A stretch of DNA of 6,989 nucleotides, taken from NCBI GenBank assembly GCA_014730235.1, contig WJIO01000389.1, positions 1 to 6,989 of the forward strand, read 5' to 3'. The position numbers were made by a program, and so were the translations under genes. The notes beneath the pieces were generated by a model, which made no database searches, was not told the origin of the DNA, and saw nothing but the letters and a program-made list of their open reading frames with translations. Origin of the DNA: Candidatus Poribacteria bacterium (GTDB lineage: Bacteria; Poribacteria; DTPJ01; WJIO01). This document shows positions 1-4,638 of the stretch, piece by piece (within the stretch, counting starts at the first letter, position 1; the number at the start of each line of letters is the position of its first letter).

Positions 1-1757
1 CGTCTAACATGCTTAAACCAGCCCTGGCCAGAGGTGAACTCCGATGTGTAGGCGCTACAACTTTGGACGAATACAGAAAACATATCGAAAAAGATCCGGC
101 TTTGGAAAGACGATTCCAGCCAGTGTTGGTACGGCCACCTACGGTTGAGGATACAATAGCAATACTGCGTGGTCTTAAGGAACGTTATGAAGTCCATCAC
201 GGCGTAAGGGTGCAGGATGCAGCCCTTATGGCTGCTGCCATCTTATCCGATAGATACATTGCCGACAGGTTTTTGCCTGATAAAGCTATAGATCTGATAG
301 ACGAAGCTGCATCAAAGCTGAGAATAGAGATTGACAGTATCCCCACAGAAATTGATGAAATACAACGCAGGATAATGCAGTTGGAAATAGAAAGACAGGT
401 TTTATCAAAAGAAAAAGATAAAGCTTCAAAAGAAAAGCTGGAAAAGCTGGATGCTGAGTTGGCTGAACTCAACGAACAGGTAACAGAAATGAAGGCCCAC
501 TGGCAGATAGAAAAAGATGCCATACAGAAAATACAGCATACCAAAGAAGAGATAGAAAAAGCCAAAGCCGAAGAGGAAAAAGCCATAAGAGAGGGCAATT
601 ACTCCAGAGCAGGCGAAATTCGTCACGGAACTCTTGTAAAACTTACAACCGAACTCGAAGAAGAAAATAAGAAACTGGCAGAAATTCAGGCCGAAAGAAA
701 GATGTTAAAAGAGGAAGTTGACGAAGAGGACATAGCCGAAGTTGTTTCTAAATGGACAGGAATCCCGGTTTCCAGACTCATGCAGGGAGAAGTTGAAAAG
801 CTCCTGCACATGGAAGAAAACCTGAAAAAACGCGTAGTTGGTCAGGATGACGCAATTGCCGCTGTGTCCAACTCCGTAAGAAGAGCCAGAGCCGGACTTC
901 AGGATCCCAACCGACCAATCGGTTCATTTATATTCATGGGACCTACCGGCGTAGGTAAAACCGAGCTTGCCCGAACTCTTGCTGAATTCCTCTTTGACGA
1001 CGAAGATGCCATGATAAGACTCGATATGAGTGAATATATGGAAAGACACTCCGTCTCAAGGCTTATCGGTGCTCCACCAGGATACGTGGGATATGACGAA
1101 GGCGGACAGCTTACAGAGTCCGTCAGAAGACGACCTTACAGCGTCGTCCTGTTCGATGAAATAGAAAAGGCGCATACCGATGTGTTTAATGCGCTGTTAC
1201 AGATCCTTGAAGACGGAAGATTAACCGACGGACAGGGCAGGACAGTGGACTTTAAAAATACTGTGCTTATAATGACGTCTAACGTAGGCAGCCAGTGGCT
1301 TCAGAATATCAATGACAGCAATGCCGATGATATGAAAGAGCAGGCAATGGATGCCTTAAAAGCTCAGTTCAGGCCCGAATTCCTGAACAGGGTTGATGAA
1401 ATAATCGTATTTAATAAATTAGGAATAGAACAGATAAAACTTATTGTTGATATACAGTTTAACAGATTTAAAAAGCGTCTGGAATCTAAAAATATAGATA
1501 TAACCTTATCACCTGAAGCCAGGGAAATGCTTGCGGAAGTAGGCTTTGACCCGGTTTATGGTGCAAGACCTATCAAGCGCGTAATACAGAAAAAAATCCT
1601 TGACCCTCTGGCCATGCAGGTGCTGGAAGGCAGATTCTCAGAAGGCGATAATATAGAAGTTAAGGTATTGGATGGTGAAATTATTTTTGAAGCCGTCCAT
1701 CAATCGCAGGTGAAACAGGGCGTTACCCGGAAACCCTCGGTAACTCCGGTTTCCTGA
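1..1757 (+). CDS. clpB: ATP-dependent disaggregase ClpB, C-terminal part (5' end outside window)
   Basis: ClpB is a cytosolic hexameric AAA+ machine that threads aggregated proteins through its central pore, working with DnaK/DnaJ/GrpE. The reading frame is open to the left edge, so the N-domain and the Walker A/B motifs of the first ATPase domain are missing, roughly 295 residues by comparison with E. coli ClpB. Numbering from the Met at base 9: end of NBD1 with GATT sensor (15-18) and the ALERRFQ arginine-finger pair (R34, R35); a long heptad-rich M-domain coiled coil (about 110-235), whose length favours ClpB over ClpC; NBD2 with Walker A GPTGVGKT (311-318), pore loop GYVGY (358-362), Walker B LFDE (381-384), sensor 1 TSN (423-425), arginine finger R461 and sensor 2 GAR (518-520). 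All key NBD2 residues are intact. After the usual C-terminal domain there is a polar tail of about 20 residues with no recognisable motif. The lon gene follows 109 bp downstream on the same strand. Confidence 0.97.
1722..1754 (+). other. Overlapping inverted repeats at the clpB 3' end (possible H-type pseudoknot)
   Basis: GTTACC (1722-1727) pairs with GGTAAC (1739-1744), and GGAAACC (1729-1735) pairs with GGTTTCC (1748-1754). The two stems interleave as in an H-type pseudoknot (6 bp and 7 bp, with linkers of 1, 3 and 3 nt), ending one base before the clpB stop codon. No T-run follows, so this is not an intrinsic terminator. The pairing is seen directly; folding and role are inferred. Confidence 0.35.
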
Positions 1758-1782
1758 CCTGCTGAACTCATACATATATAAT
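1754..1782 (+). promoter_or_regulatory. Candidate SigA-type promoter of lon
   Basis: A perfect TATAAT at 1777-1782 lies 17 bp after CTGACC at 1754-1759, which matches 4 of 6 bases of TTGACA. The -35 box overlaps the clpB stop codon. Transcription would begin near 1789, giving a leader of about 78 nt before lon. The local sequence is AT-rich, so a chance TATAAT is possible, and lon could also be read from a clpB promoter since no terminator is evident between the genes. Confidence 0.5.
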
Positions 1783-1798
1783 AATACATAAGGAAGTT

Positions 1799-1825
1799 TG
1801 AGCAGATGTTATATAGATCAGCTCA
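1799..1825 (+). promoter_or_regulatory. First hairpin of the lon leader
   Basis: TGAGCAGAT (1799-1807) and ATCAGCTCA (1817-1825) pair over 9 positions with one A·A mismatch, closing a 9-nt AT-rich loop. The hairpin lies just downstream of the predicted transcription start and directly before the Shine-Dalgarno-blocking hairpin. There is no T-run after it, so it is not a terminator. Confidence 0.4.
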
Positions 1826-1861
1826 TACCTCCTTCGGCGGTCCAAGCTTGGAGGAAGGTGT
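1825..1861 (+). promoter_or_regulatory. Shine-Dalgarno-sequestering hairpin of lon
   Basis: The lon ribosome binding site GGAGGAAGGTG (1850-1860) is strong and ends 6 nt before the ATG at 1867, which fixes the start. Its complement lies upstream: bases 1825-1835 pair with 1851-1861 at 10 of 11 positions (eight Watson-Crick, two G·U, one C1831·A1855 mismatch), closing a 15-nt loop. An alternative register, CCTCC (1828-1832) with GGAGG (1850-1854), also hides the site. Imperfect helices over the Shine-Dalgarno are the hallmark of RNA thermometers, and lon is commonly heat-inducible; that role is inferred here. Confidence 0.5.
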
Positions 1862-1866
1862 AAAAA

Positions 1867-4368
1867 ATGGCTAATAAAGAACGAAACGATAAGAATAATA
1901 AGTTTGTTGTACTTCCTGTTCCCTACGAAAAAACGGATATGGAAGACGGACAGCTTGATATACCAGAGGTTTTAGGCGTATTGCCGCTGCGAAATGTGGT
2001 TGTTTACCCTCATATGGTAGCACCGTTGACAGTAGCCCGGACTTCTTCCGTAAGGTTGATCCAGGATGCCAAGAAAAATGACAGCCTGATCGCCCTCGTT
2101 GCTCAAAAGAAGCCGGAAGTTGAAAATCCGAAACCTAAGGACCTGTTTACTATAGGAACCGTGGGTAAAATTGTCAGACAACTTCAGTTCCCAAACAACG
2201 TGTATCAGATATGGGTGCATGGTATCTCCAGAATACAAGTAGAGGAATTTGTTGATTCTGAAGCCCCGTATATGGTTGCCAGATCCAGTGTTTTGATGGA
2301 AGAAACGGAACAGGACACAGAACTGGAAGCCCTGGAAAGAACTGTAATTGACATACTGGGGAAGATAGCTTCTCTGTCTGAGGATGTACCAGAAGACCTC
2401 ACCATGATGGCAAAAGGCATGGGGCCGTCGGCTACGGCTGATATGGTTTCCATGTATATGAATATTTCCCTTGATCAAAAACAAAGGCTTCTGGAGATAA
2501 CAGACGTCAAAGAGCGTTTGTCAACTCTTAGAGCTTTACTCTCCAGAGAACTCTCTGTGCTGGAACTCAGCAAGAAGATCCAGACAGAAGCCAGTGAAGA
2601 GATGAGCAAGGCTCAGCGGGAATTTTACCTGCGAAAGAAGATGGGAGCGATCAAAAAGGAACTTGGTGAAGATGACGAAGCTTCAGAACTGGACGATCTG
2701 AAAGAGCAGATCGAAAAAGCCGGTATGCCCGAAGAAGCTAAAAAGCAGGCTGAACGAGAGTTAAACCGGCTGACCAAGATGCACCCGTCTTCGGCTGAAT
2801 ATACGGTATCCAGAACTTATTTGGGTTGGCTCCTTGATGTGCCATGGAGCAAACATACAGAAGATATGCTGGATATATCAAAGGCGAAGAAGATTCTGGA
2901 TGAAGACCACTATGACCTGGAAAAGGTAAAGGATCGTATACTGGAATATCTTGCTGTCAGGAAGCTGAAAGCCGATATGAAAGGCTCTATCCTTTGCTTT
3001 GTGGGACCTCCTGGTGTTGGAAAAACATCGCTGGGTAAGTCCATCGCCAGGGCCATGGGACGCAAGTTTGTGCGTATGTCCCTTGGTGGTGTTCGTGACG
3101 AGGCCGAGATAAGAGGGCATCGTCGTACTTATATCGGTTCACTACCGGGTAGGATTATCCAGGGGCTTAAGAAAGCTGAATCCAATAACCCTGTGTTTAT
3201 GCTGGATGAGGTGGACAAGCTGGGACGCGACTTCCGGGGAGACCCATCTTCGGCTTTGCTGGAGGTACTAGACCCTGAGCAGAACCATTCCTTTGCTGAC
3301 CATTACCTGGAAGTTCCCTTTGACCTGTCCAGGGTTATGTTTATAACCACAGCCAATGTGCTGGACACTATACCTCCGGCATTGCTGGACAGGATGGAAG
3401 TTCTACGACTTCCGGGTTATACGGAAGTGGAAAAGCTTGAGATAGCAAAACGCTACCTCCTGCCCAAGCAGTTAGAAGGTCACGGCATAACAAAAAAACA
3501 GTTGACCATTTCTGATGGCGCAATCCGGAATATAATCCGAAACTATACCAGAGAAGCAGGTGTCAGAAACCTGGAAAGGGAAATCGGCACAGTATGCAGA
3601 AAGGCGGCTAAAGGTATTGCCCAGGAAGAGACGGAAAAGTGCAAGGTAACGGTTAAAAACCTTCACGAATACCTTGGCCCGGAGAAATTTTACTCAGAAA
3701 CAGCTGAAAGAGCTGACGAACCGGGCGTTGGTGTAGGTCTTGCATGGACGCCTACCGGTGGAGACATAATCTTCATAGAAGCCGCCCGTATGAAGCATAC
3801 AGGTCGCAAGAACGAATCCCTGACCCTCACAGGTCAGTTGGGTGACGTTATGCGGGAATCGGCCCAGGCAGCTTTAAGCTATGTCCGCTCCAGAGCAGAT
3901 ATACTGGGCATCGAACCGGATTTTTTTGACAAATACGACGTTCATCTGCATGTACCGGCTGGCGCAACTCCTAAAGACGGTCCATCGGCGGGAATAACTA
4001 TGGCTACAGTTCTTGCATCTCTGGCTACCAAAACACCGATCAAGGAAAAGCTTGCCATGACGGGAGAAATTACCCTGAGGGGAAGAATACTTCCTATTGG
4101 CGGGGTTAAAGAGAAGGTGCTGGCAGCTTCCAGGGCTGGTATAAATGAAATTATACTGCCAATGAAGAATAAGAAGGATTTACAGGAAATACCTGAAGAG
4201 ATCCGGGATAAAGTGGAAATTCATCTGGTTGATAATATGGACGAAGTTTTATGCATAGCTTTCCCCACAGTGTTTACCCCTGAGGGTCTGTGTGAAAGGC
4301 GGGAAAATAGCCAGTTCACCCCCACTCAAACACCATATAAGCCCGGAGTAGGACAGGAAGCCTTATAA
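1867..4368 (+). CDS. lon: ATP-dependent serine protease Lon (LonA type)
   Basis: Lon is a cytosolic hexameric AAA+ protease that unfolds and degrades damaged proteins and short-lived regulators. The 833-residue product is complete. In order: a charged N-terminal extension (about 1-33), longer than in E. coli Lon; the LON substrate-binding domain (from [15 protein letters not shown] at 36-50 to about 235); a coiled-coil linker (about 235-300); an AAA+ module with Walker A GPPGVGKT (380-387), Walker B MLDE (445-448), sensor 1 TTAN (494-497), arginine finger R509 and sensor 2 R567; and an S16 protease domain with catalytic Ser707 in DGPSAGI and Lys750 in GGVKEK. The Ser-Lys spacing of 43 residues matches E. 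coli (S679/K722). The C-terminus extends about 20 residues past the E. coli end as a Pro/Thr/Gln-rich tail. The absence of membrane segments argues against LonB of the archaeal type. It follows clpB on the same strand and ends at a strong palindromic terminator. Confidence 0.98.
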
Positions 4369-4383
4369 AATCCGAATAATAAC

Positions 4384-4421
4384 ACAATAAAAGGGCATCT
4401 TTAAAGATGCCCTTTTATTGT
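4384..4421. terminator. Perfect palindromic bidirectional terminator after lon
   Basis: Bases 4384-4421 form an uninterrupted 38-bp palindrome (19-bp arms) with a GGGCATC/GATGCCC core, an A-rich left arm and a T-rich right arm followed by further T-rich sequence. It starts 15 bp after the lon stop codon. The symmetry of A-tract and T-tract means it can act as an intrinsic terminator on both strands, suited to the convergent genes lon and usp. Confidence 0.9.
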
Positions 4422-4498: not shown

Positions 4499-4638
4499 GA
4501 GTGTGGAAGTGTAAAAATATTGTCCAATTAAGAAAAAAATATCCTCCATTTGTCATTCCTGCTTCAAGCTTTTTGAAAAAGCTTGAAGCAGGAATGACAA
4601 GCTGAGAAAATTTTCAAATTATTGCCACACTCCAGCCG
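4493..4638. repeat. 146-bp element with 14-bp terminal inverted repeats (MITE-like or IS remnant)
   Basis: The outer arms 4493-4506 and 4625-4638 are complementary over 14 bp with one mismatch; the 8-bp core is GAGTGTGG/CCACACTC. Between them is AT-rich DNA with the 51-bp inner palindrome. Size, terminal inverted repeats and lack of coding capacity fit a small non-autonomous element or a degraded insertion sequence, but I see no convincing target-site duplication at the edges, and I cannot name a family. Element status is an inference; the inverted repeats are seen directly. Confidence 0.45.
4550..4600. repeat. 51-bp near-perfect palindrome of the TGTCATTCC type
   Basis: Two 25-bp arms (4550-4574 and 4576-4600) are perfectly complementary around the single base 4575. 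The tips read TTGTCATTCC and GGAATGACAA. Palindromes with this kind of tip recur in intergenic regions of many bacterial genomes (from memory, not checked here). Neither side has an immediate T-tract: on the minus strand a run of seven T lies about a dozen bases past the stem, so it could be at best an atypical terminator for usp. Confidence 0.85.

Follow-up and report, generated by a model that had tools for sequence, protein, structure and literature searches.

The window (the whole stretch of 6,989 nucleotides analysed) is an entire contig (C334) of a Candidatus Poribacteria genome of 5.53 Mb, which is in 451 contigs, 91.6% complete and with 4.8% contamination. Its plus strand carries the 3' part of clpB and then lon, its minus strand dnaJ and then a stress-protein-like gene (Table 1 gives the features at lon); the last of these reads like a UspA-type stress protein by sequence alone and has no NCBIfam match. 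The lon start is backed by alignment with an order-level relative, G001 (MANKER... versus MAEHDR...). The G+C content is 52.6% for the 16S gene and 38.5% for a genome sample, which suggests a mesophile. The same genome (G000) has a second lon-type gene, 51% identical (L003, contig C261), behind a clpX-like gene, and thus has two LonA-like proteases.

Table 1. Features at the clpB-lon junction, with positions in the window
Feature	Position	Strand	Basis or remark
clpB, 3' part	3..1757	+	NCBIfam TIGR03346, E 6e-285; contig starts inside the gene
Candidate promoter, CTGACC-17-TATAAT	1754..1782	+	Consensus scan, 10/12 matches
Hairpin I (arm A 1790-1803, arm B 1821-1834)	1790..1834	+	-16.7 kcal/mol; constrained fold, shuffles
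Candidate Shine-Dalgarno of upstream frame, AAGGAAG	1790..1796	+	Anti-Shine-Dalgarno duplex -5.7 kcal/mol
Upper part of hairpin I, TGAGCAGAT-N9-ATCAGCTCA	1799..1825	+	Compatible with hairpin II except for the end pair
Upstream frame, 22 codons	1806..1874	+	Crosses hairpin II; 8-base overlap with lon start
Hairpin II (arm B 1825-1838, arm C 1846-1861)	1825..1861	+	-16.5 kcal/mol at 37 °C; fold prediction, shuffles
Palindrome CCAAGCTTGG	1842..1851	+	Sequence; loop and top of 3' arm of hairpin II
lon Shine-Dalgarno region, GGAGGAAGGUG	1850..1860	+	Sequence; AAGGUG in common with the relative's leader (L086)
lon (endopeptidase La, 833 aa)	1867..4368	+	NCBIfam TIGR00763, 998 bits, above cut-off

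Read base for base, AUACCUCCUUC (1825-1835) pairs with GAGGAAGGUGU (1851-1861) at 10 out of 11 positions, as the original prediction had it, with one mismatch (C1831-A1855) and two G-U pairs (U1826-G1860 and U1833-G1853). The register given by ViennaRNA for hairpin II has 14 pairs: A1855 and U1848 are bulged and the C·A mismatch is dropped. This predicted hairpin encloses the lon ribosome site from end to end, with the AAGGUG that the G001 leader also has; the palindrome CCAAGCTTGG folded as a hairpin of its own reaches only -1.4 kcal/mol. All leader statistics reported here were picked after the sequence had been seen and concern predictions only, and those on the source genome itself come from a 0.52 Mb sample with 140 genes that have a recognisable Shine-Dalgarno. 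The elements of the hairpin are present in the sequence and its predicted stability is above chance: z = -2.9 and p = 0.012 for dinucleotide shuffles of 1824-1863, and p = 0.002 (two out of 1000 as stable) when the ribosome-site arm is kept fixed and the upstream 60 bases are shuffled. Among the 140 own genes, only one has a -43..-4 segment as stable as that of lon, and hairpin II is not reached by any of the 108 other lon leaders compared, in which starts were assigned automatically (mean -5.1, lowest -15.0 kcal/mol). We find support for the predicted hiding of the lon ribosome site by an imperfect helix, which is an unusual feature.

Hairpins I and II are mutually exclusive because the arm that sequesters the lon site is common to both. 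When the lon site is forced open in the fold, the leader takes hairpin I, including the GAU/AUC above it, and in this predicted hairpin the Shine-Dalgarno of the upstream frame is hidden and the lon site is left free. Hairpin I has a z of -4.5, and 0 out of 1000 shuffles equal it; its upper part consists of 9-base arms with one mismatch and a 9-base spacer. Arm A and arm C are both Shine-Dalgarno-like, so that arm B, by pairing with C, can be expected to pair in part with A too. The energy lost to competition between the two hairpins is -8.8 kcal/mol, a value reached by none of the 140 own leaders (mean +1.9, sd 2.7). Folds of the growing transcript have hairpin I from 1834 and hairpin II from 1859, and at 37 °C state II, which has two hairpins, is predicted to be the more stable one by some 5-6 kcal/mol. 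We consider as new here the predicted sharing of the sequestering arm with a second hairpin and the putative passage of an upstream frame through hairpin II; the original prediction described the sequestering helix correctly but missed these two features, which point to other triggers. As a separate observation, CTCATAC is present twice in the leader region (1759-1774 and 1822-1828), and in a clpB read-through RNA the bases that precede the upstream copy can pair with 1795-1805 (fold of 1758-1890), a third alternative for the leader.

The CTGACC-17-TATAAT match on its own occurs at the chance (shuffle) rate; if it acts as a promoter, the RNA would start near 1788-1790, at the foot of hairpin I. 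The AAGGAAG motif stands 9 bases 5' of the ATG (1806) of the upstream frame. Codon use in this frame is nearer to that of the window's genes than that of random open frames is (p 0.028), and a comparable frame is found at four out of 140 own genes (a base rate of 3%). No arrest motif was recognised in the 22-codon peptide.

The sole order-level comparison genome, G001, belongs to another family, and its Lon protein is 70% identical. Loss of the complementarity in relatives had been set beforehand as a refutation of the original prediction, and in G001, the only distance compared, the complementarity is lost: clpB lies directly 5' of lon with a gap of 59 bases, neither hairpin is present, and its leader does not have the 22-codon peptide. 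A covariance model built from the single leader found no other copy in 56 genomes (there is an extra match in G044, with E about 1), no exact leader pattern was found in viral contigs, and the named genome collection holds only distant lon genes (53-60% identical). The leader is unique in its own genome, and the idea of an operator or leader repeated across that genome was dropped; the predicted leader element is likewise unique among the sequences searched. The G001 leader itself has a 7-codon frame, MPKKKGE* (L086 1475-1498), which includes the Shine-Dalgarno of lon and ends 2 bases short of the lon start codon; the frame's own Shine-Dalgarno is weak (-3.6 kcal/mol), and it is possible that this is a different coupling arrangement.

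We found no CtsR-like site and no CIRCE element (TTAGCACTC-N9-GAGTGCTAA) in the window, in agreement with what had been noted for the leader. Neither a ctsR gene nor an hrcA gene was found in the genome (91.6% complete), the control search having matched CtsR in Lactococcus only, and a search for RpoH gave eight sigma-factor matches, none of them above the cut-off.

With a probability of about 0.4, we read the lon leader as one that switches lon translation, or couples it to that of the upstream frame, in the manner of toiL/cat/erm; a switch controlled by translation fits the leader better than simple heat sensing. Transcription would begin near 1789, and arm B (1821-1834) would first pair with the upstream arm A, forming hairpin I; once 1850-1861 has been made, arm B would pair with the lon ribosome site to give hairpin II, the more stable end state according to the predicted energies. 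In that state the Shine-Dalgarno of the upstream frame would be free, and ribosomes translating the 22-codon frame would open the helix, since the frame crosses it. A ribosome pausing in about codons 2-9 would hold arm B and leave 1850-1861 exposed; ribosomes that finish the frame would terminate at 1872-1874, next to the AUG of lon, and could restart at this place, which would allow coupling. Lon synthesis would then follow leader translation, or translation stress, and not RNA melting. This switch is supported by the rarity of hairpins I and II, the unmatched competition between them and the features of the upstream frame; it is weakened by the lack of conservation in G001 or the 56 genomes, the chance-level promoter and the lack of a recognised arrest motif. 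As for any signal, a narrower proposal is that the leader senses translation, i.e. that slowed ribosomes in the 22-codon frame switch the leader and raise synthesis of Lon, the main quality-control protease; we consider this quite unlikely.

In attenuators of the cat/erm type, a leader frame is combined with mutually exclusive helices, one of which hides the downstream Shine-Dalgarno. The lon leader is predicted to share a putative leader frame and the exclusive helices, one over the downstream Shine-Dalgarno; however, lon is not a resistance gene, there is no known stalling peptide, and the frame ends past the lon start codon. In Escherichia coli toiL-topAI, the sequence of a short frame pairs over the ribosome site of the next gene, and a stalled ribosome would free it (PMC12121999, where the erm attenuator is also treated). 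The likeness to toiL-topAI (PMC12121999) is in the upstream frame with its own start and the pairing over the downstream ribosome site. The differences are that toiL is an 8-codon frame beginning 139 nt upstream, whereas the putative 22-codon frame of the lon leader runs through the helix and into the start of lon, and that the target of the predicted arrangement here is a protease with no inducer known. If the switch is true, a general protease would be directly controlled by ribosome behaviour in its own leader, and the lineage concerned is one whose genome has no detected CtsR or HrcA; if the sensing of translation is true as well, faulty translation would be tied directly to proteolysis, with no transcription factor in between. 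Where the ribosome site of a heat-shock gene is hidden, the leader should be checked for upstream frames and for competing folds before the label 'thermometer' is given.

Close behind the two-state switch in weight comes an incidental structure, i.e. a leader that folds by chance with nothing regulated, which we regard as doubtful; the same holds for its companion statement that lon is translated via its strong extended site, or mostly from clpB read-through RNA. Freeing the lon site in the whole leader costs a net 5.8 kcal/mol, a value that does not stand out from those of shuffled leaders (p = 0.38) and is exceeded by 10 out of 140 own genes, in favour of a chance fold; the net cost is only this high because the alternative fold compensates. 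The absence of the leader from G001 and the 56 genomes points the same way, but either hairpin is seldom equalled, whether in shuffles or at own genes, and none of the 140 own leaders matches their competition.

The original prediction held that the leader is an RNA thermometer, in which heat shock melts hairpin II and the lon ribosome site is freed. Its first half, sequestration of the site, stands as a predicted and rare feature, but temperature as the signal has no support in the folds, and a thermometer is, in our estimate, unlikely. It would suit a thermometer that the site is fully covered by a helix with a bulge or C-A mismatch and G-U pairs, that lon is a heat-shock protease gene near clpB and dnaJ, and that CtsR and HrcA were not found in the genome; the heat-shock gene and the imperfect helix are not specific to thermometers. 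Known RNA thermometers are little conserved in sequence (PMC4166951), which would also suit one; the absence of the hairpin from G001 argues against one. Folding over a range of temperatures had been proposed as the check: hairpin II is shut past 65 °C in silico, with a predicted -5.7 kcal/mol at 65 °C and -3.8 kcal/mol at 70 °C, in a host with a 16S G+C of 52.6%. For a control of the method, the same melting calculation was applied to the ibpA and ibpB leaders of E. coli MG1655. The ibpA leader is a known ROSE-type thermometer, and it is likewise predicted to be shut at 42-45 °C, so the test has little power and predicted melting neither supports nor excludes a thermometer; the melting curves were dropped as a test because this control fails to open. 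The natural hsp17 thermometer has a Tm of 46 °C, and a stabilised variant has a Tm of 64 °C (PMC4477652). None of the Rfam thermometer families has a gathering-level match in the window (chance matches only, at E <= 5), which argues against a thermometer; a ROSE search of the genome gave no match, but no control was matched either, and this is not evidence of absence. Among open-licence papers that mention both lon and RNA thermometers, none deals with a thermometer at lon, as judged by title and abstract opening. The lon leader is like ROSE, fourU and hsp17 in that the ribosome site of a heat-shock gene lies in an imperfect 5' leader hairpin, and differs from them in its very stable predicted helix, its competing hairpin, its upstream frame and the missing Rfam match.

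It is very unlikely that TGAGCAGAT-N9-ATCAGCTCA is a DNA operator that binds a repressor: the arms and spacer are CIRCE-like in geometry and lie just 3' of the candidate promoter, where operators lie, but the exact match is unique in the genome (the next best has 2 mismatches), there is no copy at dnaJ in the window, the sequence is not that of CIRCE, and HrcA was not found.

Two further elements lie downstream. A stem of 17 pairs with a loop of 4 and a T-rich tail (4384-4421, 3' of lon), scored on both strands, is a strong terminator between convergent genes. The long palindrome GTCATTCCTGCTTCAAGCTTTTTGAAAAAGCTTGAAGCAGGAATGAC (4552-4598), between lon and the stress-protein gene, recurs almost unchanged, with six copies in the 0.52 Mb sample of this genome, and so is a dispersed REP/MITE-like repeat, with perhaps 60 copies by extrapolation.
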